Assembly: GCF_009789575.1 (NCBI RefSeq)
Contig: NZ_CP046908.1
Span: 3,563,001-3,627,000 of the forward strand
Source of the DNA: Stappia indica
GTDB taxonomy: Bacteria; Pseudomonadota; Alphaproteobacteria; Rhizobiales; Stappiaceae
Direction of reading: 5' to 3'
DNA length: 64,000 nt
Part shown: one piece after another, positions 10,112-64,000 of the stretch
How positions within the stretch are numbered: the first letter of the stretch is position 1
Layout of the letters: every line of letters begins with the position of its first letter
Notes under the pieces: generated by a model
What the model was told of the DNA's origin: nothing
Seen by the model: only the letters and a program-made list of their open reading frames with translations
Database searches by the model: none
Made by a program: the position numbers and the translations under genes

Positions 10112-10924
10112 ATGGACGGGCAGGCTCAGGATCAGGTGCGCCATATCGAGGTCAGTGCCGACAGGCGGCGCATCGCCGTGCTGCGAGAGGAGGGCGCGCC
10201 GGGGCGCTGCGGCGTGCTGTGGCTGTCCGGCTTCAAGTCCGACATGGCCGGCACCAAGGCGGAGGAGCTTGCCGCCTGGGCGCGCGCCACCGGCCGCGCC
10301 ATGACGCGTCTCGACTATTCCGGCCACGGCATCTCGGACGGCGCGTTCGAGGACGGCACCATCTCGCGCTGGGCGGAGGAGGCGCTGGCCGTCCATGCCG
10401 CCTTCTGCCGCGAGCCGACCATCGTCGTCGGCTCGTCGATGGGCGGCTGGATCGCGCTGCTGCTGGCCCGCGCGCTTGCCGCCCGGCCGGTTGCGTCCGC
10501 GCCGCTCGCCGGCATGGTGCTGATCGCGCCGGCGCCGGACTTCACCGAAGAGCTGATGTGGAAGCACGAGTTCACCGACGAGATCCGCGAGACGATCCTG
10601 CGCGAGGGCCGGTTCGAGCGTCCGTCCGAATATGACGACAGCCCCTATGTGATCACCCGCGCCCTGATCGAGGACGGCCGCGACAACCTGCTGCTCGCCG
10701 GCCTGATCGAGACCGGCTGCCCGGTCACCATCCTGCAGGGCCAGCGCGACGACGCCGTGCCCTGGCGCCATGCGCTGCGGCTGACCGAGTGCCTGGCGCT
10801 GGACGATGTGGTGCTGACCCTGATCAAGGACGGCGACCACCGGCTGTCGCGGCCGCAGGACATCGAGCGGCTGATTGCCGCCGTCGAGGTCCGCGCGACC
10901 GAGGCCGAAGCGGAAGCCGGCTGA
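10112..10924 (+). CDS. Alpha/beta hydrolase
   Basis: A 270-residue serine hydrolase. The nucleophile elbow is GSSMGG with Ser109. The probable acid lies in LQGQRDDAVPWRHA and the catalytic His in DGDHRLSR near the end. An early VLWLSGFKSDMAGTKA and the RLDYSGHGISDG loop resemble the ABHD10-like branch of acyl-protein or glucuronide esterases, as far as one can tell by eye. The ATG follows a GGAGG site. It is divergent from the glycosyltransferase and stands alone. Confidence 0.87.
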   Translation: MDGQAQDQVRHIEVSADRRRIAVLREEGAPGRCGVLWLSGFKSDMAGTKAEELAAWARATGRAMTRLDYSGHGISDGAFEDGTISRWAEEALAVHAAFCREPTIVVGSSMGGWIALLLARALAARPVASAPLAGMVLIAPAPDFTEELMWKHEFTDEIRETILREGRFERPSEYDDSPYVITRALIEDGRDNLLLAGLIETGCPVTILQGQRDDAVPWRHALRLTECLALDDVVLTLIKDGDHRLSRPQDIERLIAAVEVRATEAEAEAG

Positions 10925-11096
10925 TCCGGCAGGGCAGCGCCTGCGTCCTTCTGCCCGTTCTTTTTGCAGGGCGGGTCATCGGTTTGTCTTATTTCGCGCA
11001 AAGGCTTGGGCAGGCATGATCGGACCTGCGCAGCCGGCCGGGGAGCGTCCCCGCGGGCGAACGCGCGCGCGGACAGCAAGCGGAGGCAAGCAATCC

Positions 11097-12134
11097 ATGA
11101 CGGCAGCACGCAGGCGTTTCATCCTGGCGATCGACGGAGGCGGTATTCGGGGGCTGATCCCGCTGCGAATCCTCGAGACGCTGGAGGCGCGGCTGCGCGT
11201 GCTCGGCAAGACCCAGCCCCTCCATCGCTATTTCGACATGATCGGCGGCAGTTCCACCGGCGGGCTGATTGCCGCCGGCCTGGCCGCCCCGCGCCCCGAC
11301 GACACCAGCGGCGCACCGGCGGCCGGCACTTCCGAGTTGCGCCGCTTCTTCGAGGTGGAGGCGCGCGAGGTCTTCCGCCGCAAGAGCCTGTTCGAGCGCT
11401 TCGTCGCCAACCCGCGGGCGGTGTTCGACGAGCGCTACGACGAGCGGCCGCTGGAGCGCATCCTCAAGGAACAGCTCGGCTGGACTTCGCTGCAGTCGGC
11501 GCTGACCCGCGTGGTGCTGACGGCCTATGACCTCGGCCGCCGCGAGGCGGTGTTTATGACCAACGGGCGCCAGAGCGACGGCAGCCGGCCGGACGACTAC
11601 TATTTCTGGCAGGCGGTGCGCGCGACGACGGCGGCGCCGGCCTATTTCGAGCCGATGCGCACGGAAAACCTGACCCATGGCGACGAACGGGTGCTGATCG
11701 ACGGCGGCGTCGTCATGAACAACCCGGTTTTGGCGGTCTGGCTGGAGGCGATGAAGATGGGCTGGAAGCCGGAGGAGATCACCATCGTGTCGCTCGGCAC
11801 CGGTGCCGACATCCGCCGCACCTGGACTTTCCGCGAGGCCGCGTCCTGGGGGCCGCTCGGCTGGCTGCTGCCGGCAAACGGCGTGCCGCTCCTTTCCGTC
11901 CTTGCCCATGGCCAGTCGACCACCGCCGCTTATCAGGCCGAGCGCCTGTTGCCGGCCGCCGGTATCGGCGAGGTGGTGCGCCTCGACGGCGACCTGCCGG
12001 CCGGGGCGGAGGCGATCGACAACACCCGTCCGGGCAACATCATCGAGCTGAACGGCGTGGCCGATCGCATCATCCGCGACAACACCCGGCTGCTCGACCG
12101 TCTCGCGCAGGAGATGAGCGAGTGGCCCGAATAG
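11097..12134 (+). CDS. Patatin-like phospholipase
   Basis: A 345-residue cytoplasmic lipid acyl hydrolase. It has the oxyanion loop DGGGIRG (residues 13-19), the nucleophile motif GSSTG with Ser53, and the catalytic Asp202 in LIDGGVVMNNP, so the Ser-Asp dyad is complete. Patatins release fatty acids from phospholipids. A GGAGG site precedes the ATG. Patatins of this form are also used as CBASS effectors, but no nucleotide cyclase or other defence gene lies next to it, so a housekeeping or stand-alone role is more likely. Confidence 0.88.
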   Translation: MTAARRRFILAIDGGGIRGLIPLRILETLEARLRVLGKTQPLHRYFDMIGGSSTGGLIAAGLAAPRPDDTSGAPAAGTSELRRFFEVEAREVFRRKSLFERFVANPRAVFDERYDERPLERILKEQLGWTSLQSALTRVVLTAYDLGRREAVFMTNGRQSDGSRPDDYYFWQAVRATTAAPAYFEPMRTENLTHGDERVLIDGGVVMNNPVLAVWLEAMKMGWKPEEITIVSLGTGADIRRTWTFREAASWGPLGWLLPANGVPLLSVLAHGQSTTAAYQAERLLPAAGIGEVVRLDGDLPAGAEAIDNTRPGNIIELNGVADRIIRDNTRLLDRLAQEMSEWPE

Positions 12135-51383: not shown

Positions 51384-52361
51384 ATGCAGGCAGGCGACTG
51401 GACAACAGACATGGCGATCCGCGCCGCGTGGATGTCCTTCGTCGGCGGCGCGACGCAGGGCGAGATCGCCACGCGCCTCGGCATCTCCACGGCCCGCGTG
51501 CATCGGCTCATCGCCCATGCCCAGAAGACCGGCCTCGTCCGCTTTCAGATCGCCGATCGCCCCTCCGACTGCCTGGAGATCGAGGCAGTGCTGGTGGACG
51601 CCCATGGCCTGTCCTCCTGCCTGATCGCGCCCGATATCGGCGGCGGTGACGATGCGTCGGCGATCCGGGCCATCGCCGAGGTGGCCGGTCCGCATCTCGC
51701 CAGTCTGCTCGGCAATCCCTCGCTCGTCCAGCTTGGCGTCGGCATGGGCCGCACGCTGAAGGCTGCGGTGGAGATGATGCCCCGCATCCAGCGCCCGGAT
51801 CTCAGCATCGTTTCGATTTCCGGCTCGCTGACGCGCAAGCTCTCCGCCAACCCGTTCGACGTCGTCCAGCAGTTGGCTGAGCGCACGGGCGGCGAGGGCT
51901 ACTATCTGCCGGTGCCTTACCTGGCCGAGAGCGTTGCCGAGCGCGACACGTTCCTCGGCCAGCGCAGCGTCCAGGCGCTGCTCGACCGTGCGCGCGCTTC
52001 CGGTCTCTTCGTCATCGGCATCGGCTCGGTGGAAGACGACGGCCATCTCATCAGTCGCGACCTGATCTCGCGCGAGGAGCAGCGCGACCTGATCGCGACG
52101 GGTGCGGTCTGCGACCTGATGGGCCGCTTCATCGGCCGCGACGGACGGCTGGTGCCGGCCAAGCTCGGCGACAAGGCGGTCGGACTGCCCTTCGAGGCCG
52201 TTCGCGGCGCGCGCATCGTCGCGTTGGCCGGCGGGCTCGGCAAGCTTGAGGCCACGCGTGCAGCGCTGCGCGCGGGGCTGATCACGGACCTGATCGTCGA
52301 CGAGAGCCTGGGCCGGGCCCTGGCCGTCGCGGAAGGAACCAGACAAGCCCGCTCGGCATGA
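51384..52361 (+). CDS. SorC/DeoR-type sugar-binding transcriptional regulator
   Basis: 325 residues. An N-terminal HTH (QGEIATRLGISTARVHRLIAHA) precedes a SorC-type sugar-phosphate domain of about 260 residues (LGVGMGRTLKAAVEMMP, ISGSLTRKLSANPFDVV, FVIGIGSVEDDG). Such proteins usually sense a phosphorylated sugar. As first gene of the nucleoside cluster it is probably the local regulator and may respond to (deoxy)ribose-5-phosphate; in B. subtilis DeoR of this family binds deoxyribose-5-phosphate. The start is uncertain: the in-frame ATG at 51411 is also possible. Confidence 0.9.
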   Translation: MQAGDWTTDMAIRAAWMSFVGGATQGEIATRLGISTARVHRLIAHAQKTGLVRFQIADRPSDCLEIEAVLVDAHGLSSCLIAPDIGGGDDASAIRAIAEVAGPHLASLLGNPSLVQLGVGMGRTLKAAVEMMPRIQRPDLSIVSISGSLTRKLSANPFDVVQQLAERTGGEGYYLPVPYLAESVAERDTFLGQRSVQALLDRARASGLFVIGIGSVEDDGHLISRDLISREEQRDLIATGAVCDLMGRFIGRDGRLVPAKLGDKAVGLPFEAVRGARIVALAGGLGKLEATRAALRAGLITDLIVDESLGRALAVAEGTRQARSA

Positions 52362-52391: not shown

Positions 52392-53390
52392 ATGGTGATG
52401 AAAAGCGTGATCCTCGGGGCTGCTGCGGCGGTCCTGCTCGCCGGAACGGCGCTGGCTCAGGACATCCAGCCGGCGGTCGTCTATGATCTTGGCGGCAAGA
52501 ACGACAAGTCCTTCAACGAGGCGGCCTTCATCGGCGCCGAGAAATTCAAGGCCGACACCGGCATCGACTATCGCGATTTCGAGATCCAGAACGACAGCCA
52601 GCGCGAGCAGGCGCTGCGCAACTTTGCGCGCCGCGGCGCCAACCCGGTGATCGCCATCGGCTTTCTTCATGCCAATGCGCTGACGAAGGTCGCCAAGGAA
52701 TTCCCGGACACCCAGTTCGCCATTGTCGATGAAAAGGTCGATCTGCCGAACGTTCGCTCGATCGTCTTCAAGGAGCATGAAGGCTCCTACATCGTCGGCA
52801 AGCTCGCCGCGATGGCCTCGCAGAGCGGCAAGGTCGGCTTTGTCGGCGGCATGGACATCCAGCTGATCCGCAAGTTCGCTTGCGGCTACAAGCAGGGCGT
52901 CAAGGAAACCAACGCTGACATCGAGATCCTCGAGAACATGACCGGTTCGACCGGCGCTGCCTTCAACGATCCGGTCAAGGGCGGCGAGCTCGCCAAGTCG
53001 CAGATCGACCGCGGTGCGGACGTGATCTACCACGCTGCCGGCGCCACGGGTCTGGGCGTCCTGCAGGCCGCCGCGGATGCCGGCAAGCTCGGCATCGGCG
53101 TCGACAGCAACCAGAACGCCGTGCATCCGGGCAAGGTGCTGACCTCGATGCTGAAGCGCGTCGACGTTGCGGTCGAGAAGGCCTTCACCGATGCCAAGGA
53201 CGGCAAGTGGACCTCGGGCGTCTATTCGCTCGGTCTTGCCGAGGATGGCGTCGACTGGGCGCTCGACGACAACAACAAGGCGCTGATCACCGAGGAGATG
53301 AAGTCCGCGGTCGACCAGGCCAAGGCCGACATCATTTCCGGCAAGATCGCCGTCCATGACTACATGGCGACCGAGAGCTGCCCGTTCTGA
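52392..53390 (+). CDS. BMP-family nucleoside-binding protein, copy 1
   Basis: 332 residues with a signal peptide cut after about residue 23 (LAGTALA before QDIQPAVVYDLGGKNDKSFN). The fold is the BMP/Med family (PnrA-like) of purine nucleoside receptors. The N-x-A-A-F-x-G-A-E segment, NPVIAIGFLHANALTKVA and VGFVGGMDIQLIRKF are conserved with the next gene. There is no lipobox Cys, so the protein is soluble in the periplasm. A GGAGG site precedes the ATG. Confidence 0.93.
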   Translation: MVMKSVILGAAAAVLLAGTALAQDIQPAVVYDLGGKNDKSFNEAAFIGAEKFKADTGIDYRDFEIQNDSQREQALRNFARRGANPVIAIGFLHANALTKVAKEFPDTQFAIVDEKVDLPNVRSIVFKEHEGSYIVGKLAAMASQSGKVGFVGGMDIQLIRKFACGYKQGVKETNADIEILENMTGSTGAAFNDPVKGGELAKSQIDRGADVIYHAAGATGLGVLQAAADAGKLGIGVDSNQNAVHPGKVLTSMLKRVDVAVEKAFTDAKDGKWTSGVYSLGLAEDGVDWALDDNNKALITEEMKSAVDQAKADIISGKIAVHDYMATESCPF

Positions 53391-53469: not shown

Positions 53470-54465
53470 ATGACGCCTATCCTGAAAACCGTTGCGGTTC
53501 TCGCCCTTGCGGCTGGCCTTGTCGCGACACCCGCCATGGGTGAACCGGCCCTGGTCTATTCCGTCGGCGGCAAGTTCGACGGCTCGTTCAACGAGGCGGC
53601 CTTTCGGGGCGCCGAGCGGTACGCTGCCGAGACCGGCGCCCCCTATCGGGATTTCGAGATCGCGCGCGATGCCGACAGCCTGCAGGCGTTGCGCGGCTTT
53701 GCCGCGCGCGGCGCGGAACCGGTCGTTGCCATCGGCTACAATCAGGCTGCTGCCGTCGCGGCCGCGGCGAAGGACTTCCCGCAGACGGATTTCTCCATCG
53801 TCGACATGGTGGTCGAGGCCCCCAATGTGCGCTCGGTCGTCTTCCGCGAGCATGAAGGCTCGTATATCGCCGGCCTGCTGGCGGCGATGGCCTCGAAAAC
53901 CGGGACCATCGGTTTCGTCGGCGGCATGGACATTCCGATCATCCGCCGGTTTCTCTGCGGCTACCGGCAGGGGGCGGCATCCGTTTCGCCCGACATCCGC
54001 GTTCTCTTCAACATGACCGGCGACACGCCGGCGGCCTTTGCCGATCCGGCCCGCGGCGCGGAGCTTGCGCGCGGCCAGATCAACCGCGGCGCCGATGTGA
54101 TCATCCAGGCAGCCGGCGGCACCGGCATCGGGGTCCTTCAGGCCGTGGCCGATGCCGGCGTTCTCGGCATCGGCACCGACAGCAACCAGAACGGCCTCCA
54201 TCCGGGCCGCATCCTCACCTCGATCCGCAAGCGCGTGGATGTCGCCGTCTACCGCAATTTCGCCGACGCGCAGGCGGGCACGTGGAGCGCGGGCATCGAG
54301 GTGCTCGGCCTTGCGGAGGGCGGCATGGACTGGGTGATCGACGACAACAACCGCGCGCTCGTCACCGCGCAGATGGAGGCGGCGGCCGGCGAGGCAGCCG
54401 CGCGGATCGCCGGCGGCACGATCACCGTGCACGACGCGGCCAGCGACGGGGAGTGCCCGCTGTGA
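53470..54465 (+). CDS. BMP-family nucleoside-binding protein, copy 2
   Basis: 331 residues with a signal peptide (LATPAMG-type end before EPALVYSVGGKFDGSFN). It is a tandem paralogue of the preceding gene, alignable over its whole length (NEAAFRGAERYAAETGAPYRDFEI; IGFVGGMDIPIIRRFLCGYRQG). Residues that differ around the ligand pocket suggest a different specificity. The start is ATG at 53470, just after an overlapping GTG. The stop overlaps the GTG of the ATPase gene. Confidence 0.92.
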   Translation: MTPILKTVAVLALAAGLVATPAMGEPALVYSVGGKFDGSFNEAAFRGAERYAAETGAPYRDFEIARDADSLQALRGFAARGAEPVVAIGYNQAAAVAAAAKDFPQTDFSIVDMVVEAPNVRSVVFREHEGSYIAGLLAAMASKTGTIGFVGGMDIPIIRRFLCGYRQGAASVSPDIRVLFNMTGDTPAAFADPARGAELARGQINRGADVIIQAAGGTGIGVLQAVADAGVLGIGTDSNQNGLHPGRILTSIRKRVDVAVYRNFADAQAGTWSAGIEVLGLAEGGMDWVIDDNNRALVTAQMEAAAGEAAARIAGGTITVHDAASDGECPL

Positions 54466-56000
54466 GCGACCAGCTTGCCATCGAACTCGTCGGCGTCGAC
54501 AAGCGCTTCGGACAGGTCCACGCCAACAAGGACATCCACCTGAAGGTCCGCAAGGGCTCCATCCACGGCATCGTCGGCGAGAACGGCGCCGGCAAGTCGA
54601 CGCTGATGTCGATCCTCTACGGCTTCTATCACGCCGATTCCGGCGAGATCCGCGTCGATGGCAGTAAGGTCTCGATCCCCTCCAGCCAGGCGGCGATCGC
54701 GCTGGGCATCGGCATGGTCCATCAGCATTTCATGCTGGTGGAGAACTTCACCGTGCTGGAGAACATCATTCTGGGCGCCGAGGGCGGTGCGCTTCTTGCC
54801 GGCGGTGTGTCGAAGGCGCGAGCGGAGCTGAAGCGCCTTGCCGACGACTATGACCTCAAGGTCGATCCCGACGCGCTGATCGAGGACCTTCCCGTCGGCC
54901 TGCAACAGCGGGTGGAAATCCTCAAGGCGCTGTTCCGCAGCGCCGACATCCTGATCCTGGACGAGCCGACCGGCGTTCTGACCCCGGCGGAGGCCGATCA
55001 TCTCTTCCGCATCCTTCGCGTGCTGCGCGACGAGGGGAAGACGGTGCTGCTGATCACCCACAAGCTGCGCGAGATCATGGCGGTGACGGACGAGGTCTCC
55101 GTGATGCGGCGCGGCGAGATCGTCGCCACCCGCCAGACGTCGAAGACCTCGATGGGCGAGCTTGCCGAGTTGATGGTCGGCCGCCGTGTCCTGCTGGAAG
55201 TGGAGAAAGGTCCGGCCGCGCCCGGCCGTCCGGTGCTGACCGTCGAGAACCTGACGGTGCGCGATGCGCGCGGCGTCGATGTCGTGCGCAATGTCTCGCT
55301 GGAGGTGCGGGCCGGCGAGATCGTCGGCATTGCCGGCGTTTCCGGCAACGGCCAGTCCGAGCTGCTGGAGGCGATTGCCGGCATCCGTGCGGTGACGTCG
55401 GGCATCGTCACGGTCGACGGGACGCGGGTGGATCTTGCGCAGGGCGGCACAGACCCTGCCGCCATGCGTGCACTCGGGCTCGCGCATGTGCCCGAAGACC
55501 GCCACCGCATGGGGCTGGTGACGCGCTTTCCCGAATGCGAGAATGCCATTCTCGGCTATCACCGCGACCCGGCCTATGGGCGCGGGCCATTCCTCGATTT
55601 CGACCGCATCCGCGCGGTGGCGAAGGTCGAGATCGAAAAATACGACATCCGCCCGGCCGACTGCATGCTGAAGACCGCCAACTTCTCCGGCGGCAACCAG
55701 CAGAAGATCGTGCTGGCGCGCGAGATCGAGCGCGATCCGGTCATCCTGCTCGTCGGCCAGCCGACGCGCGGCGTCGACATCGGCGCCATCGAGTTCATTC
55801 ACAAGCGCATCGTCGCCCTGCGCGATGCGGGCAAGGGCGTCCTGCTGGTCTCGGTGGAGCTCGACGAGATCCGGGCACTGGCCGACCGGGTGCTCGTCAT
55901 GTTCGACGGTCAGGTGGTCGGAGAGCGCGCGCCGGAAACGGCGGAAAGCGAGCTGGGCCTGCTGATGGCGGGCGCCAGCGGACAGGAGGCGGCGGAATGA
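54462..56000 (+). CDS. ABC transporter ATPase, two ABC domains (nucleoside)
   Basis: 512 residues with two fused ABC domains as in RbsA and NupA. The first has Walker A GENGAGKSTLM and a Walker B near LILDEPTGVLTPAE. The second has a degenerate Walker A (GVSGNGQSELLE) but a good signature (FSGGNQQKIVLARE). Only one site is likely to hydrolyse ATP fast, as is usual in this family. The GTG start overlaps the binding protein stop, and the end overlaps the first permease. Confidence 0.94.
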   Translation: MSDQLAIELVGVDKRFGQVHANKDIHLKVRKGSIHGIVGENGAGKSTLMSILYGFYHADSGEIRVDGSKVSIPSSQAAIALGIGMVHQHFMLVENFTVLENIILGAEGGALLAGGVSKARAELKRLADDYDLKVDPDALIEDLPVGLQQRVEILKALFRSADILILDEPTGVLTPAEADHLFRILRVLRDEGKTVLLITHKLREIMAVTDEVSVMRRGEIVATRQTSKTSMGELAELMVGRRVLLEVEKGPAAPGRPVLTVENLTVRDARGVDVVRNVSLEVRAGEIVGIAGVSGNGQSELLEAIAGIRAVTSGIVTVDGTRVDLAQGGTDPAAMRALGLAHVPEDRHRMGLVTRFPECENAILGYHRDPAYGRGPFLDFDRIRAVAKVEIEKYDIRPADCMLKTANFSGGNQQKIVLAREIERDPVILLVGQPTRGVDIGAIEFIHKRIVALRDAGKGVLLVSVELDEIRALADRVLVMFDGQVVGERAPETAESELGLLMAGASGQEAAE

Positions 56001-57103
56001 CGGCGGGACAGCTTCCGCGCTGGGTCGACTACGGATTGATGCCGGCGCTCAATGTCGCGGCAGCCTTCCTTGTCTCGGGCCTGGTGGTGCTCTTGATTGG
56101 CGAGAACCCGGTCGAGGCGGTCAAGGTTCTGGTCTGGGGCTCGCTCGGCTGGAACGAGGGCATCGGCTTCACCCTGTTCTACGCGACCAATTTCATCTTC
56201 ACCGGCCTTGCGGTGGCCATCGCCTTCCATGCGGGCCTCTTCAACATCGGCGGCGAGGGCCAGGCGTATCTGGGCGGCCTCGGCGTCGCCCTGGCGTGTC
56301 TGGCGCTCGACCGATATGTGCCCTGGTGGGTGACGCTTCCCTTCGCGGTACTGGGAGCTGCCGCCTTCGGCGCGGCCTGGGCCTTCATCCCGGCGCTCCT
56401 TCAGGCCAAGCGCGGCAGCCATGTCGTGATCACCACGATCATGTTCAACTTCATCGCCGCCTCGCTGATGGTCTACCTGCTGGTCAACCTCCTGTCGAAG
56501 CGCGGGTCGATGCAGCCGGAAACCCGGACCTTCGAGAGCGGCGGCCGCCTGCCGCTGCTGCAGGACGTGCTGCCCGGCACCGATTTCGGATCCGCGCCGG
56601 TGAATTTCTCCTTCCTGCTCGCGCTCGCCGCCTGCCTTCTGGTGTGGATCGTCGTCTGGCGCACCCGGCTCGGCTACGAGATCCGCACCTTCGGCGCCAA
56701 TCCCGTCGCCGCCGTCTATGCCGGCATTTCGCCGCTGCGCATTACCGTCGTCACCATGCTGATGTCCGGCGGTCTCGCGGGCATGATGGCGATCAACGAG
56801 ATCATGGGTTCGCAGCACCGGCTGCTGATCGAGTTCGTGTCCGGCTACGGCTTCGTCGGCATCGCGGTCGCGTTGATGGGACGTGCGCATCCGGTCGGCA
56901 TCGTCTTCGCCGCAGTCCTGTTCGGCATGCTCTACCAGGGCGGTGCGGAACTGGCCTTCGAGATGCCGACGATCACCCGCGACATGATCGTCGTCATCCA
57001 GGGGCTGGTGATCCTGTTCGCCGGTGCGCTGGAGCATATGTTCCGCCCGGTATTGCTGCGCATCTTCGGGGTGCTGGCCGCCCGGCCGGCTCCGGCAGCG
57101 TGA
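55997..57103 (+). CDS. Nucleoside ABC transporter permease 1
   Basis: 368 residues, about ten membrane helices, of the BPD_transp_2 family (as NupP/YufP). The conserved loop region reads ANPVAAVYAGISPLRITVVTMLMSGGLAG, and GLFNIGGEGQAYLGGLG marks the early core. The ATG overlaps the ATPase stop (ATGA). It pairs with the following permease to form the channel. Confidence 0.93.
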   Translation: MTAGQLPRWVDYGLMPALNVAAAFLVSGLVVLLIGENPVEAVKVLVWGSLGWNEGIGFTLFYATNFIFTGLAVAIAFHAGLFNIGGEGQAYLGGLGVALACLALDRYVPWWVTLPFAVLGAAAFGAAWAFIPALLQAKRGSHVVITTIMFNFIAASLMVYLLVNLLSKRGSMQPETRTFESGGRLPLLQDVLPGTDFGSAPVNFSFLLALAACLLVWIVVWRTRLGYEIRTFGANPVAAVYAGISPLRITVVTMLMSGGLAGMMAINEIMGSQHRLLIEFVSGYGFVGIAVALMGRAHPVGIVFAAVLFGMLYQGGAELAFEMPTITRDMIVVIQGLVILFAGALEHMFRPVLLRIFGVLAARPAPAA

Positions 57104-57116
57104 GGGGAGGGGAAAG

Positions 57117-58085
57117 ATGTTCGAAACCCTGATCTTCGTGCTCGACAGCACCGCACGCCTGTCCACACCGCTGCTGCTGGCAGCCCTTGCCGGGCTCTAT
57201 TCCGAGCGCTCCGGCATTTTCGACATCGGGCTGGAAGGCAAGATGCTGGGCGCAGCCTTTGCCGCCGGCACGGCGGCAGTGCTCAGCGGCTCTGCCTGGA
57301 TCGGCCTTGCCGCCGGCATTCTCGTCTCGGTGGCGCTGGCGCTGGTGCACGGTTTTGCCTGCATCACCAATCGCGGCAACCAGATCGTCTCCGGCGTCGC
57401 CATCAACTTCCTGGCACTGGGCCTGACGGCGCTGCTCGGCCAGGCCTGGTTCGGCCAGGGCGGACGCACGCCGTCGGTAACGGGAGACGGCCGCTTCGGA
57501 GATGTCACATGGCCCTTCGCCGCGGAGCTGCGCGACGTCCCGGTGATCGGCGGGCTCTATTCGGAGCTCCTGTCCGGCCACAACATCCTCGTCTACGCCG
57601 CCTTCCTTGCCGTGCCCTTCTCGTGGTGGGTGCTGTATCGCACACGCTTCGGCCTGCGCCTGCGCGCAGTCGGCGAGAATCCTGGCGCGGTCGATACGGC
57701 CGGCATCTCCGTCACCTGGCTGCGCTATCGCGCGGTGATCTGCACGGGCATCCTGTGCGGCTTTGCCGGCACGTATCTCTCCATCGGCCAGTCGGCGAGC
57801 TTCATCGCCAACATGACGGCCGGCAAGGGTTTCATCGCCCTCGCGGCGCTGATCTTCGCCAAGTGGAAGCCGGTGCCGGTGATGTTCGCCTGCCTGCTCT
57901 TCGGGTTCCTCGATGCGGTGGCGATCCGCCTGCAGGGCCAGCAGGTGCCGGGCATCGGCGAGGTTCCGGTGCAGGCCATCCAGGCCCTTCCCTACATTCT
58001 GACCGTGGTGCTGCTTGCCGGGTTCATCGGCAAGGCGGTCCCGCCGCGCGCCGGCGGCACCGCCTATGTCAAGGAACGCAGCTGA
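57117..58085 (+). CDS. Nucleoside ABC transporter permease 2
   Basis: 322 residues, the second BPD_transp_2 permease (as NupQ/YufQ). Recognisable parts are SGIFDIGLEGKMLGAAF and GLRLRAVGENPGAVDTAGISVTWLRYRAVI. GAGGGGAGGGGAAAG lies directly before the ATG, a strong ribosome-binding site. Together with the ATPase and BMP proteins it makes a complete purine/pyrimidine nucleoside importer. Confidence 0.93.
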   Translation: MFETLIFVLDSTARLSTPLLLAALAGLYSERSGIFDIGLEGKMLGAAFAAGTAAVLSGSAWIGLAAGILVSVALALVHGFACITNRGNQIVSGVAINFLALGLTALLGQAWFGQGGRTPSVTGDGRFGDVTWPFAAELRDVPVIGGLYSELLSGHNILVYAAFLAVPFSWWVLYRTRFGLRLRAVGENPGAVDTAGISVTWLRYRAVICTGILCGFAGTYLSIGQSASFIANMTAGKGFIALAALIFAKWKPVPVMFACLLFGFLDAVAIRLQGQQVPGIGEVPVQAIQALPYILTVVLLAGFIGKAVPPRAGGTAYVKERS

Positions 58086-58107: not shown

Positions 58108-58518
58108 ATGAGCCGCTTCGACGAGTTGTTTGCCGCCGCCAGTGCGGCCCGCGAAAATGCGCATGCGAAATATTCCGGCTTTCGCGTCGGGGCTGCCCTT
58201 GTCACACGCGACGGGCGCATCTTCGCCGGCTGCAATGTGGAAAATGCCAGCTTTCCCGAAGGCTGGTGCGCCGAGACCAGCGCGCTGGGCGCGATGGTGT
58301 CCGCGGGCGGCCGGCCGGGCGACGTGGTCGAGGTGCTGGTCACCGCGAAGGCGGCGCTGTGCACCCCTTGCGGCGGTTGCCGCCAGAGACTTGCCGAATT
58401 CGCCGGCGACGATGTGCCGGTTCACATCTGCGACGACACCGGGCTGCGCCGCACGCTGACCATGGCGGACCTGCTGCCGGCCCGGTTCGTTCTCAATGAC
58501 GAGGAGAGGGACATATGA
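58108..58518 (+). CDS. cdd: Cytidine deaminase
   Basis: 136 residues, the short tetrameric type. Zinc ligands are Cys54, Cys88 and Cys91, with the catalytic Glu56 (CNVENASFPEGWCAETSA and CTPCGGCRQRLAEF). It turns cytidine and deoxycytidine into uridine and deoxyuridine, the substrates of the phosphorylase downstream. The Phe-Pro-Glu-Gly-Trp before CAE departs from the more common Ala-x-Tyr-Gly-x form. Its stop overlaps the next gene. Confidence 0.95.
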   Translation: MSRFDELFAAASAARENAHAKYSGFRVGAALVTRDGRIFAGCNVENASFPEGWCAETSALGAMVSAGGRPGDVVEVLVTAKAALCTPCGGCRQRLAEFAGDDVPVHICDDTGLRRTLTMADLLPARFVLNDEERDI

Positions 58519-59327
58519 GCGGCTACGGGCCGGAATGCGCGGAGATGGTCCGCGCCGCAAGACCCGGCGACTACCGCGTCGGAATGGTGCTGGGCTCGGG
58601 CCTCGGCCAGTTGGCCGACGAGGTCGAGGATGCCGTGCGCATTCCCTATTCCAAGCTGACGGGCTTTCCCGTTTCCTCGGTCTCCTCCCATGGCAGCGAG
58701 CTGATTGCCGGCCGCCTCGGCGACGTGCCGGTGGTGGTCCTGTCCGGCCGCGCCCACTACTACGAGGGGGGCGGCGCCGATGTCATGCGCACGCCGCTGG
58801 AAACGCTGAAGGCGCTCGGCTGCGACACGCTGCTGCTGACCAATGCGGCCGGGTCCCTGCGCCAGGAGTTCGCGCCGGGCACGCCGATGCTGATCAGCGA
58901 CCACATCAACTGGTCCGGCCTCAACCCCTTGATCGGCGAGGAAAGCGACCGCCGCTTTCTCGACATGAGCGCCGCCTACGATCCCGACTTCCGTGCCCGT
59001 CTGCGGGCGCTTGCCAAGGACGAGGAGATTGCGCTGGGCGAAGGCGTCTACATGTGGTTTTCCGGCCCCTCCTTCGAGACGCCGGCGGAAATCCGCATGG
59101 CGAAACTGCTGGGAGCGGATGCAGTCGGCATGTCGACGGTGCCGGAAGTGATCCTCGCCCGCTATCTCGGCCTGCGCGTTGCCGCGATCTCGACCATCAC
59201 CAACTATGGCGCCGGCCTGCAGGCGCACGGCCTGTCGCACGAGGAAACCAAGTCGACCGCACTGATGGCCGTCGACGCGCTGAAGCGGCTGATCCGCCGC
59301 TTCGTCAAGGATCTTGGAAATGCCTGA
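58515..59327 (+). CDS. Purine nucleoside phosphorylase (trimeric class)
   Basis: 270 residues with the class I, trimeric PNP motifs: GMVLGSGLGQLADEVED at the start, SGRAHYYEGG, and LLTNAAGSLRQEFAPGTPMLISDHIN. It splits guanosine, inosine and their deoxy forms with phosphate into a base and (deoxy)ribose-1-phosphate. The ATG overlaps the cdd stop (ATGA). This family is named punA, xapA or deoD in different species, so I leave the symbol open. Confidence 0.93.
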   Translation: MSGYGPECAEMVRAARPGDYRVGMVLGSGLGQLADEVEDAVRIPYSKLTGFPVSSVSSHGSELIAGRLGDVPVVVLSGRAHYYEGGGADVMRTPLETLKALGCDTLLLTNAAGSLRQEFAPGTPMLISDHINWSGLNPLIGEESDRRFLDMSAAYDPDFRARLRALAKDEEIALGEGVYMWFSGPSFETPAEIRMAKLLGADAVGMSTVPEVILARYLGLRVAAISTITNYGAGLQAHGLSHEETKSTALMAVDALKRLIRRFVKDLGNA

Positions 59328-60096
59328 CATGACACCTGCCGAGCTGGCGCAGCGCGCGCTGCCGCTGGTCGACCTGACCAATCTGGATGAGGCCTGCACC
59401 ACCGCCGACATCGACGCGCTCTGCGCCCGGGCGGCCACGCCCCATGGCCCAGTCGCGGCGGTCTGCATCTGGCCGCGTTTCGTTGTCCAGGCCGCAAGCC
59501 TGCTCGCCGGCTCCGGCGTTCGCACCGCCACCGTCGTCAACTTCCCGCAAGGCGGCGACGACACGCTGGCCGTCCTGGCCGAGACCCGCCAGGCGATTGC
59601 CGACGGCGCCGACGAGATCGACCTCGTCATGCCCTATCGCGCCTTTCTGGACGGTCGGCGCGGTTTTGCCGAGACCCAGATCCGCAAGGTGCGCGAGGCC
59701 TGCGGCGACCGGCTGCTGAAGGTCATCCTGGAGACCGGCGAGATCGGCGACCCGCTGCTCATCCACGCTGCCTCGCTGCTGGCGATCTCGGCCGGTGCCG
59801 ACTTCATCAAGACCTCGACCGGCAAGGTGAAGGTCAACGCCACGCTGGAGGCGGCGGAGATCATGCTCACCGTCATCGAGGAGATCCGCCGCGAGGGCGG
59901 CCCGGAAATCGGCTTCAAGCCGGCCGGCGGCATCCGGACGCTCGCGGACGCGGGCGCGTATATCGCGATCGCCGACCGCATTCTCGGGGCCAACTGGGTG
60001 GCCGCCTCGCATTTCCGCTTCGGCGCGAGCGGCCTGCTCGATGCCCTGCTTGCCGCGCTCGACGGGCGCGAGCCGACCACCGCCAAAGGATATTGA
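59320..60096 (+). CDS. deoC: Deoxyribose-phosphate aldolase
   Basis: 258 residues (259 in E. coli). The Schiff-base lysine is Lys164 in [17 protein letters not shown]. Other marks are [12 protein letters not shown] and [17 protein letters not shown]. It splits deoxyribose-5-phosphate into acetaldehyde and glyceraldehyde-3-phosphate. The start lies inside the last codons of the phosphorylase gene. ATG 59320 is my choice; ATG 59329 and TTG 59314 are possible. Confidence 0.95.
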
Positions 60097-60100
60097 CCGC

Positions 60101-61423
60101 ATGCTGGCGCAGGAACTGATCCGCAAGAAGCGCGACGGCGGCACGCTTGCCCCGGAAGAGATCGCCTTCTTCGTCAAGGGGCTGACCGACGACAGCGTCT
60201 CGGAAGGGCAGGTGGCGGCGCTTGCCATGGCCGTGTTCTTCCGCGGGCTGTCGCTGGACGAACGTGTCGCGCTGACGCTGGCGATGCGCGACAGCGGCAC
60301 CGTGCTCGACTGGTCCGACATCGACGCGCCGATCCTCGACAAGCATTCGACCGGCGGCGTCGGCGACAATGTCTCCCTGATGCTGGCCCCCGCGCTGGCC
60401 GCCTGCGGCGCGGCCGTGCCGATGATCTCCGGCCGCGGCCTTGGCCATACCGGCGGCACGCTCGACAAGTTCGATGCTATCCCCGGCTACAAGACGCAGC
60501 CCGACAACGCGCTGTTCCGCAAGGTGGTGCGCGAGGTCGGCTGTGCGGTGATCGGCCAGACGCCGGATCTCGCGCCGGCCGACAAGCGCTTCTATGGCAT
60601 CCGCGACGTGACGGGCACGGTCGAAAGCCTCGACCTCATCACTGCCTCGATCCTGTCGAAGAAGCTCGCCGCCGGCCTGCAGGGCCTCGTCCTCGACGTG
60701 AAATGGGGGACTGGCGCGTTCATGGCGACGCTGGATCAGGCCAAGGCGCTCGCCGAAAGCCTCGTGACCGTCGCCAATGGCGCCGGCTGCCGCACCAGCG
60801 CGCTGCTCACCGACATGAACGAGCCGCTGGCTTCCGCCGCCGGCAACGCGGTCGAGATGCGCAATGCCGTCGATTTCCTGACCGGTCGGGCGGTCGACAA
60901 TCGTCTGTTCGACGTCACGGTGGCGCTCGGCGCCGAAGCGCTCGTCCTCGGCGGGATCTGCGCCGATGCCGGGGAGGGGGCGGAGAAGATGCGCGGCGCC
61001 TTCGCCAGCGGTGCGGCGGCCGAGCGCTTTGCGAAGATGGTTTCGGCCCTCGGCGGCCCGGCGGACTTCGTGGAAAAGGCGGAAGCCTATCTGGCGTCCG
61101 CCCCGGTTGAGCTGCCGGTCTATCCGCAGGAGCCCGGCACCGTCGTCGGCGTCGACGCGCGTGCCATCGGCGTTGCCGTCGTCGAGCTCGGCGGCGGGCG
61201 CCGCCGGGCCAGCGACGTGATCGATCCGGCGGTAGGGCTGGTGCACCTTGCCGGCATCGGCCATTCCGCCGACAGCGACGCCCCGCTTGCCATCGTCCAC
61301 GCCGCCGACGAGGCGTCGGCGCGAAGGGCGGCGGAGGCGGTGCGCGCCGCCTATCGGCTCGGCTCGCCGCGCGACGTGGAGGATCGGCCCGTCGTCGTGG
61401 AGCGTATCGCGCCGTCTCTCTGA
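60101..61423 (+). CDS. deoA: Thymidine phosphorylase
   Basis: 440 residues, the family length. The phosphate and nucleoside motifs are [18 protein letters not shown] and [16 protein letters not shown], followed by [14 protein letters not shown]. It cleaves thymidine and deoxyuridine to base and deoxyribose-1-phosphate. An AAGGA site precedes the ATG, four bases after the deoC stop. Confidence 0.96.
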
Positions 61424-61507
61424 CGGCGGCCCGGATCGGGAACCGGGTTTTCGGAACTGCAATGGGGCGGGGCACAACCGCCCGGCAACGACAAACGGGG
61501 AAACCTC

Positions 61508-62728
61508 ATGGCACGCGCGATCCTGTGCGTCTTGGACAGTTTCGGTATCGGCGGGGCGCCGGATGCCGCCCGCTTCGGCGACGAAGGCTCCGATACGCTC
61601 GGCCACATCGCGAGCGCCTGCATGCGGAGCGAGGGCGACCGCGAGGGGCTGCGCTCCGGTCCGCTTGCCCTGCCCAACATGACCGCGCTCGGCCTTGCCC
61701 GCGCGGCGCAGCTTGCGACCGGCAAGGTGCCGGCGGGCATGGACGGGGCCGCCGAGCTGGTCGGCATCTTCGGCACCGCGAGCGAGACCTCGCACGGCAA
61801 GGACACGCCGTCCGGCCACTGGGAGATCGCCGGTGTGCCGGTCGCCTTCGACTGGGGCTATTTCCCGGATACGGTGCCGACCTTCCCTTCGGAACTGACG
61901 CAGGCGATCATCCGCGAGGCGGGCCTGCCCGGCATCCTCGGCGACACTCACGCCTCCGGCACGGTGATCATCGCAGAGCTCGGCGAGGAGCATGTGCGGA
62001 CCGGCAAGCCGATCTGCTACACCAGCGCCGATTCCGTGTTCCAGATCGCCGCGCACGAGGAGCATTTCGGCCTGGAGCGGCTCTATCGTCTCTGCGAGAC
62101 CGTTCGCCGTCTGGTCGATCCCTACAATATCGGCCGGGTGATCGCGCGGCCCTTCATCGGCGATGCCGTCTCCGGGTTCGAGCGCACCGCCAACCGGCGC
62201 GACTATTCGGTGCTGCCGCCGGAGCCGACCCTGCTCGACCGTGCCGTTGCCGCAGGGCGCCGGACGCTGACCATCGGCAAGATCTCCGACATCTTCGCCC
62301 ATCAGGGCGTATCGGAGGTGCTGAAGGCGGCTGGCAACGATGCCCTGTTCGACCGCACGCTGGAGGCGATGGACAAGGCCGGCGAGGGCGATCTGATCTT
62401 CGCCAACTATATCGATTTCGACAGCCTTTACGGCCATCGCCGCGACGTGCCTGGCTATGCAGCTGCGCTCGAGGCGCTGGACCGCCGGTTGCCGGAACTG
62501 CTGGAGCGACTGCGGCCGGGCGACCTGCTGATTCTCACCGCCGATCACGGCTGCGATCCGACCTGGCGCGGCACCGACCACACCCGCGAGCGGGTGCCGG
62601 TGATCGGCCTTCTCAAGGGGAGCGCGCCGAAGGAAATCGGCATTCGCGACACGTTCGCCGATATCGGCGAGACCATCGCGGCCCATCTGGGGCTGGCGCC
62701 GGGGCGGCACGGCACCTCCTTCCTCTGA
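61508..62728 (+). CDS. deoB: Phosphopentomutase
   Basis: 406 residues of the alkaline phosphatase-like, manganese-dependent family. The catalytic Thr lies in [10 protein letters not shown], and metal ligands appear in [15 protein letters not shown] near the start and in [19 protein letters not shown] near the end. It interconverts (deoxy)ribose 1- and 5-phosphates, linking the phosphorylases to deoC. Eighty-four bases follow deoA, so it may have extra control. A GGGGA site precedes the ATG. Confidence 0.96.
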
Positions 62729-62819
62729 TATCGGGCTCGCCGAACTGGAGCCCGTCCGGTCCTCCCGCTAGACTGTGCGGCATCGATCCGCACGAACGGT
62801 ATCCCCAACGGAGACGCGC

Positions 62820-63683
62820 ATGATCGCACGGTCCTTTTCCGCACCGCGGGACGGAGTTCTGACGCCGGAGATGCAGGAGGCCTATGCCCAGGACGGCTTC
62901 CTGGTGCTGACCGGCTACAAGTCGGCGGCGGACTGCGACGCGCTGAAGGCCCGCATGTCCGAGTTGATCGACGCCTTCGATCCGCACGAGCATGCCTCCG
63001 TCTTCGAAACCGGTGCCCAGAGCCATGCCCGCGACCGCTATTTCCGCGAGAGCGGCGACAAGATCCGCTTCTTCTTCGAGGAGGAGGCGTTCGACGAGGA
63101 CGGCCGGTTGCAGCGCGACAAGCATATGGCGCTGAACAAGGTCGGCCACGCGCTGCACGACCTCGACCCGGTGTTCGAGCGCTTCTCGCGCGATCACCGG
63201 CTTGCCCGCACGGCGGAGAGCCTCGGCCTTACCGCGCCGCTGCTGGCCCAGTCCATGTATATCTTCAAGCCGCCGGAGATCGGCGGCGAGGTCAACTGCC
63301 ACCAGGATTCCACCTTCCTGCACACCGAGCCGCTGTCCTGCACCGGATTCTGGTTCGCGCTGGAAGACGCCGACGAGACCAATGGCGGCCTGCTCGGCGG
63401 GCCGGGCGGGCATCTGGCGCCCCTGCGCCAGCGCTTCCACTATGACGGCGAGGCGCTGGTGATGGAGCCGCTGGACGACACGCCACTTGCCGGCGACGTG
63501 CCGCTGGTCGCCCCCAAGGGGACGCTGGTGGTGCTGCACGGTCTGGTGCCGCATCGCTCGGCGCCGAACCGCTCGCCGCGCTCGCGCCATGCCTATGCGT
63601 TGCATCTGGTCGACGGGACCGCCCGCTGGTCGCCCGACAACTGGCTGGTGCGCGCACCGGAAAACCCGATGCGCGGGTTCTGA
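62820..63683 (+). CDS. Phytanoyl-CoA dioxygenase-family (PHYHD1-like) oxygenase
   Basis: 287 residues with an Fe(II)/2-oxoglutarate dioxygenase fold. The iron ligands are His161 and Asp163 (NCHQDSTF) and His245, and a 2-oxoglutarate-binding Arg lies near 254-256. The end (SRHAYALHLVDGTARWSPDNWL) closely resembles animal PHYHD1, whose substrate is unknown. A GGAG site precedes the ATG. The gene sits inside the nucleoside cluster, directly before adenosine deaminase (3-base gap). This suggests a nucleoside or base substrate, which is inference. Confidence 0.9.
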   Translation: MIARSFSAPRDGVLTPEMQEAYAQDGFLVLTGYKSAADCDALKARMSELIDAFDPHEHASVFETGAQSHARDRYFRESGDKIRFFFEEEAFDEDGRLQRDKHMALNKVGHALHDLDPVFERFSRDHRLARTAESLGLTAPLLAQSMYIFKPPEIGGEVNCHQDSTFLHTEPLSCTGFWFALEDADETNGGLLGGPGGHLAPLRQRFHYDGEALVMEPLDDTPLAGDVPLVAPKGTLVVLHGLVPHRSAPNRSPRSRHAYALHLVDGTARWSPDNWLVRAPENPMRGF

Positions 63684-63686
63684 CGC

Positions 63687-64000
63687 ATGCCGGCAAGCGC
63701 CAGCACGCGGGCAATGCTTCCCAAGGCGGAACTGCATGTGCATATCGAGGGGGCGGCGCCGGCCGATCTCGTGCAGCGCCTTGCCAAACGCCACGGCCAG
63801 GACGTCGAAGGCCTCTTCGACGAGCGCGGCCGCTACCTCTGGAACGACTTCTCCGAATTCCTCGCGGCCTATGACAGGGCGAGCCGGGTGTTCCGCACGC
63901 CGGAGGACTACGCGCTGCTCTCCGGAACCTATCTGCGCATGCTGGCGGCGGAGGGGGCGATCTATGCCGAACTGACGATCTCGCCCGATCACGCCGCCGG
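63687..64000 (+). CDS. add: Adenosine deaminase, 3' end outside window
   Basis: The first 104 residues are present and open to the window edge. LPKAELHVHIEGA is the zinc-binding start motif (His-x-His) of the adenosine/AMP deaminase family. DFSEFLAAYDRASRVFRTPEDYALL and EGAIYAELTISPDHAA follow as in adenosine deaminase. It would convert (deoxy)adenosine to (deoxy)inosine for the phosphorylase. An adenine deaminase of the same fold is a less likely alternative until the rest is seen. Confidence 0.85.
   Translation, partial: MPASASTRAMLPKAELHVHIEGAAPADLVQRLAKRHGQDVEGLFDERGRYLWNDFSEFLAAYDRASRVFRTPEDYALLSGTYLRMLAAEGAIYAELTISPDHAA

Follow-up and report, generated by a model that had tools for sequence, protein, structure and literature searches.

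PHYHD1, which was long without a known substrate and is linked to human disease, has recently been assigned a reaction: demethylation of free 2'-O-methyl nucleosides is reported for the human enzyme and for relatives from animals, plants, fungi and bacteria (PMC12709175; Nucleic Acids Res., December 2025). The products of FJS, one of the bacterial enzymes, are the nucleoside and formaldehyde; nucleotides are not substrates of FJS or human PHYHD1, and none of the RNAs tested was acted on by FJS or by the human or plant enzymes (PMC12709175). Zebrafish without the PHYHD1 gene build up free 2'-O-methyl nucleosides, and the E. coli auxotroph of the screen could not use 2'-O-methylcytidine unless such an enzyme was supplied (PMC12709175). 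RK9NH and LbNH, which are 2'-O-methylribonucleoside hydrolases, likewise take part in the bacterial catabolism of 2'-O-methyl nucleosides; according to PMC6278475 and PMC12709175, however, they belong to another protein family, the nucleoside hydrolases, and cut the glycosidic bond without removing the methyl group. The gene of the RK9NH 2'-O-methyluridine hydrolase adjoins one for a DeoC-like aldolase, which represents a different route (PMC6278475). Here we describe a PHYHD1-type dioxygenase gene at 62820..63683 (+) of a 64,000-nucleotide stretch of the Stappia indica genome (contig NZ_CP046908.1, positions 3,563,001 to 3,627,000; referred to below as the window), which is located between deoB and add in a cluster of nucleoside uptake and breakdown genes.

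The dioxygenase is very probably a cluster-encoded 2'-O-methyl nucleoside demethylase, which would make blocked nucleosides from RNA accessible to Cdd, Add, Pnp and DeoA. The reaction is known from relatives; the basis provided here consists of the gene, the predicted fold, the catalytic and contact residues, and the recurrent placement in nucleoside clusters, and from these we infer demethylation by this very protein, import of its substrate by the transporter, and a nutritional role. An earlier note on this DNA had suggested that the enzyme may hydroxylate or demethylate a modified nucleoside for use by the pathway, and the gene neighbourhoods together with the published reaction of the relatives support this suggestion. 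The note also stated that no substrate is established for PHYHD1; this has been overtaken by PMC12709175, which reports the demethylation and with which the inference from gene order agrees. Both the reaction and the group of proteins have thus been published before, and the bacterial operon context is the new setting. In open-licence PMC, we found no description of the bacterial operon context of PHYHD1-type enzymes, and no paper linking a PhyH enzyme to phosphopentomutase plus adenosine deaminase or to a nucleoside ATP-binding cassette (ABC) transporter plus cytidine deaminase; the main text of PMC12709175, when searched by term, yielded no gene neighbours of FJS. The present analysis lends independent support, drawn from genomes, to the role recently reported for PHYHD1. 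In addition, it suggests an operon-encoded route for the recycling of 2'-O-methyl nucleosides in bacteria; the catabolic pathways of these nucleosides are termed largely unexplored in the abstract of PMC12709175. The proposed route is testable in cultured Stappia strains.

The open reading frame begins with ATG at 62820, ends with a stop codon at 63681-63683, and encodes 287 amino acids. It lies 91 nucleotides downstream of deoB (which ends at 62728) and 3 nucleotides upstream of add (ATG at 63687), all on the + strand, and these coordinates agree with those of the earlier note. The product matched the full Pfam PhyH profile (PF05721) with 128.3 bits against a curated cut-off of 22, and had no match in the NCBIfam library. 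The iron triad, which the note had placed at His161, Asp163 and His245, was found intact at these positions. Furthermore, H161, D163, H245 and R256, the last of which we take to be the 2-oxoglutarate-binding arginine, were kept in 107, 107, 105 and 106 of the 107 fetched homologues, respectively. These homologues include near-copies and genomes fetched twice (e.g. L033 and L083), a redundancy lessened by the 65 groups formed at 80% identity.

The resemblance to PHYHD1 claimed in the note was borne out: the best match among solved structures was human PHYHD1 (E = 4.7e-62, 213 bits), whereas the runner-up scored 37 bits, and the profile scores were 312 bits for PHYHD1 and 83 bits for PHYH. By sequence and predicted fold, the protein is a PHYHD1 orthologue, closer to PHYHD1 than to PHYH and the other PhyH enzymes of known structure. 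Identities as phytanoyl-CoA hydroxylase, ectoine hydroxylase and proline hydroxylase were rejected because their matches were far weaker than that of PHYHD1. Human PHYH (PDB 2A1X) shares the PhyH-family fold and the iron and 2-oxoglutarate site with the dioxygenase, but it is a far weaker match and no 2'-O-methyl nucleoside activity was detected for it (PMC12709175).

In the docking of human PHYHD1, K102, H105, Q139 and W277 contact the ribose, F161 stacks on the base, and S154 contacts the purine (PMC12709175). Five of these six residues are present in the dioxygenase, the equivalents in the structure-match alignment being K107, H110, Q144 and W275 for the ribose contacts and F166 for stacking. 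Across the 107 bacterial homologues, the ribose contacts were conserved in 107 (K), 106 (H), 107 (Q) and 106 (W), and the stacking position was occupied by F in 88, Y in 18 and W in 1. Compared with human and animal PHYHD1 (isoform A; PDB 2OPW and 3OBZ), to which it is ca. 42% identical, the dioxygenase differs in the replacement of S154 by Asn, in its location in a bacterial nucleoside cluster, and in a shorter loop near the cavity mouth, at the site of the human extra helix (Q56-L71). In the predicted model, short helices span 67-71 and 73-76, within and adjoining its least confident block (61-70; predicted local distance difference test score, 71).

In order to examine the neighbourhoods, 20-kb stretches (shorter at contig ends, some from 5.9 kb) around 37 homologues of the class of the window (Alphaproteobacteria), with the window's own homologue excluded, were scanned with the Bmp, permease, Cdd, Pnp, DeoC, DeoA and DeoB proteins of the window and the Add of its genome. 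At least two nucleoside families were found near the enzyme in 20 of the 37 homologues, representing 13 of 27 genera and 11 of 23 families. In contrast, none of 40 other PhyH loci from 18 of the 38 genomes had two or more such families, and one had a single family, whereas 12 of the 18 PHYHD1 loci of the same genomes had nucleoside neighbours. These control paralogues were the first 40 non-PHYHD1 rows listed rather than a random draw, and some of their contigs were short (4-20 kb). Fisher's test assumes independent loci, and the genus count is the fairer figure. In a wider set of 65 homologue groups, which covered this class and named GTDB genomes, 21 had two or more nucleoside families within seven genes, and 20 had one directly adjacent to the enzyme; this count takes the generic ABC ATPase as a nucleoside family, whereas the stricter count of 37 homologues omits it. 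The gene orders varied (X, enzyme): deoB-X-add, deoA-X-add, deoA-X-5'-nucleotidase and X-bmp-ATPase-permeases-cdd-pnp. Nucleoside genes were also present near the enzyme in an actinobacterial metagenome assembly (L105). Because the placement recurs across genera and the paralogue control is negative, it is beyond chance. The earlier note had proposed a search for constant pairing with nucleoside genes; the link is present, but it is frequent rather than constant.

The label "nucleoside neighbours" required at least 8 changes on the tree, 2 of which were forced by well-supported branches, compared with a mean of 18 in shuffles. The nucleoside context is therefore clustered by descent, and is not one single event on this quick tree. 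In the initial homologue search, at most six first-look candidates were scored per genome. Genes were called by codon log-odds, which missed the target in one of 108 loci (L117, cut by the contig end and excluded from the counts); a caller using codon-position GC (guanine plus cytosine) content was dropped, having missed the target gene in 13 of the 108.

Within the family of the window (Stappiaceae), the dioxygenase gene was found in 35 of 87 genomes, 13 within the genus and 22 outside it. In all 20 of the out-of-genus relatives that were fetched, the enzyme was located between deoB and add, and the order deoB-enzyme-add was seen in 10 of 10 loci of the window's own homologue group. The gene was absent from 52 family genomes; in all 21 of these that were sampled, deoB and add adjoined, with 29-192 bases between the tblastn match edges. 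Thus, the cluster of this family is otherwise stable, and the dioxygenase gene is an optional component that occupies a set position. About 1.1 kb separates deoB from the enzyme in three of the 20 relatives. In one of these (L190), a proline racemase-family gene (10542-11564, −; PF05544, 343 bits) lies between the two, and gaps of roughly the same size were observed in L181 and L191. As for the remaining two out-of-genus relatives, one has deoB followed by the enzyme on a stretch that ends before add. In the other (G387, contig C2, 39404-40298), the dioxygenase gene is broken by an in-frame stop, and may therefore be decaying in its slot.

The assignment of the surrounding genes to nucleoside uptake and breakdown, as proposed earlier, agrees with the family profiles. 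The features of the cluster are as follows.

51384..52361, + strand: DeoR/SorC-like regulator (PF04198 sugar-binding domain, 176 bits; start codon uncertain)
52392..53390, + strand: Bmp/PnrA-type substrate-binding protein (PF02608, 196 bits)
53536..54465, + strand: second Bmp/PnrA-type substrate-binding protein (PF02608, 174 bits; start codon uncertain)
54462..56000, + strand: ABC transporter ATPase (PF00005, 158 bits)
55997..57103, + strand: ABC permease of the presumed nucleoside uptake system (PF02653, 118 bits)
57117..58085, + strand: ABC permease of the presumed nucleoside uptake system (PF02653, 132 bits)
58108..58518, + strand: cdd, cytidine deaminase (TIGR01354, 143 bits, above cut-off; start codon uncertain)
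58515..59327, + strand: pnp, purine-nucleoside phosphorylase (TIGR01698, 338 bits, above cut-off)
59314..60096, + strand: deoC, deoxyribose-phosphate aldolase (TIGR00126, 216 bits, above cut-off; start codon uncertain)
60101..61423, + strand: deoA, thymidine phosphorylase (TIGR02643, 670 bits, above cut-off; start as in locus L002)
61508..62728, + strand: deoB, phosphopentomutase (NCBIfam TIGR01696, 488 bits, above cut-off)
62820..63683, + strand: PHYHD1-type Fe(II)/2-oxoglutarate dioxygenase, predicted 2'-O-methyl nucleoside demethylase (PhyH profile, residues, fold)
63687..64000, + strand: add, adenosine deaminase, 5' part (NCBIfam NF006848, 438.8 bits, above cut-off; full 340 amino acids in L002)

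The regulator scored 116 bits against the NCBIfam DeoR model, below the cut-off of 420, and SorC is a name that we presume for it. Past the end of the window, the cluster continues (L002:15880-18243) with upp, a short-chain dehydrogenase that scored 343 bits with the D-xylose 1-dehydrogenase model (below the cut-off of 400), and a ribokinase-like kinase whose match was also below cut-off. A scan of 61400-64000 for promoters and terminators found none, ca. 0.1 and 1.0 being expected by chance, respectively; this null result neither shows nor excludes a single transcript.

In the proposed pathway, 2'-O-methyl nucleosides derived from degraded RNA would be imported by the Bmp-type ABC transporter, and the methyl group would bar their use until its removal. 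With Fe(II), O2 and 2-oxoglutarate, the dioxygenase would hydroxylate the 2'-O-methyl group of the free ribonucleosides, and the unstable product would break down to the unmodified nucleoside and formaldehyde; succinate and CO2 would be the by-products. Deamination of the freed nucleosides by Cdd and Add and their phosphorolysis by Pnp and DeoA would follow, with DeoB and DeoC channelling the pentose phosphate. Companion genes in other lineages fit an enzyme acting on nucleosides rather than nucleotides. A calcineurin-type 5'-nucleotidase-like gene directly follows the enzyme gene at seven loci of two groups (Pelagibius and relatives), and in a further group such a gene is located three genes on; three other groups have a lipoprotein e(P4) 5'-nucleotidase-like protein one or two genes away. 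One member of each of these families was profile-scanned (e(P4) fell below the NCBIfam cut-off), and the rest were joined by blastp clusters.

Several observations weigh against the demethylase assignment. By the same counts as above, 44 of the 65 homologue groups and 17 of the 37 class homologues have no nucleoside neighbours. For the groups without them, 160 genes lying up to two places from the enzyme were listed from one locus per group, excluding genes below 80 or above 899 residues and those at stretch ends. In a Pfam tally of 107 of these genes, none of the 25 families listed of 235 was a recurrent nucleoside family, the 53 genes dropped being mainly from further Marinomonas and Kordiimonas-type loci and a few others. 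The sixth docking contact, S154, is Asn159 in the dioxygenase and variable among the homologues, although its hydrogen bond was proposed to account for purine preference and is not a group-defining feature (PMC12709175). FJS and the other bacterial PHYH-like enzymes for which 2'-O-methyl nucleoside demethylation is published (from Sphingomonas, Poribacteria and Acidisoma) are described as having Tyr at the stacking position (PMC12709175), whereas the dioxygenase has Phe, as in animals. In addition, an S-(hydroxymethyl)glutathione dehydrogenase is encoded in the genome (above cut-off) far from the cluster and unlinked to it, and this formaldehyde enzyme family is common, with matches in 13 of 14 genomes in the control (above cut-off in 3). 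Its presence would fit formaldehyde release, although it is not specific evidence of it.

Among the alternatives, the one that survives best retains the reaction and changes the role, so that the enzyme would clear inhibitory free 2'-O-methyl nucleosides arising from the cell's own RNA turnover instead of feeding on imported ones. In zebrafish, the role of PHYHD1 was ascribed to turnover of free 2'-O-methyl nucleosides and harm from their build-up was discussed (PMC12709175), and many bacterial homologues lie outside nucleoside clusters. However, the Stappia gene shares its cluster with genes for a presumed nucleoside importer, and homologues in other genomes are near 5'-nucleotidase-like genes; for this locus, we consider a clearing role unlikely. 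In hosts without nucleoside neighbours, the enzyme may serve turnover or something else.

A second alternative is that an enzyme of the same fold and nucleoside class catalyzes another reaction that feeds the deo pathway, either at an unmethylated position, such as C2' of 2'-deoxynucleosides, or on another modified nucleoside. In its favour, the presence of DeoA, DeoB and DeoC marks a deo-type cluster; a fungal nucleoside 2'-hydroxylase is cited in the introduction of PMC12709175, on which a literature search in open-licence PMC found nothing relevant. Moreover, 2'-deoxynucleosides are not among the substrates tabulated in PMC12709175, which makes their hydroxylation possible and is a further point against demethylation. 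On the other hand, the residues that contact the ribose when 2'-O-methyl nucleosides are docked into human PHYHD1 recur in the dioxygenase and in almost all of the 107 homologues, and the deo enzymes break down deoxynucleosides without an oxygenase (textbook knowledge). This alternative is quite improbable. A chance insertion into the cluster of a PhyH enzyme with an unrelated substrate is scarcely credible: PhyH proteins are abundant in some of the sampled genomes (up to 26 matches in one) and two-thirds of the groups (44/65) lack nucleoside neighbours, but the paralogue control gave 0/40 against 20/37 at the PHYHD1 loci, the placement recurs over several gene orders and genera, and activity of orthologues on 2'-O-methyl nucleosides is published (PMC12709175).

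Beyond the demethylase assignment for this locus, we are inclined to believe that many bacteria have a dedicated operon module for eating ribose-methylated RNA debris, in which 5'-nucleotidases would release free 2'-O-methyl nucleosides, a Bmp importer would bring them into the cell, PHYHD1 would demethylate them, and deo, cdd, add and pnp functions would degrade them. In that case, the ancestral job of PHYHD1 would have been nucleoside catabolism, and the enzyme would later have been kept in animals for turnover.

The dioxygenase is single-copy in the genome at E ≤ 0.001, and a second PhyH-family protein at E ≤ 1e-8 (G000:C1:3194192-3194809, −; 115 bits) is encoded outside the window. The nearest named relatives by the dioxygenase were Stappia records with 97, 96 and 94% identity, in a search that picks up close relatives only and in which the 70 named loci are an uneven sample. 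Outside nucleoside clusters, one lineage (L047, L049 and L064) keeps the neighbour genes c24 and c36 steadily beside the homologue, and the Marinomonas loci among L115-L137 have the steady neighbours c10 and c15-c20. These steady neighbours may reflect other contexts or plain inheritance.
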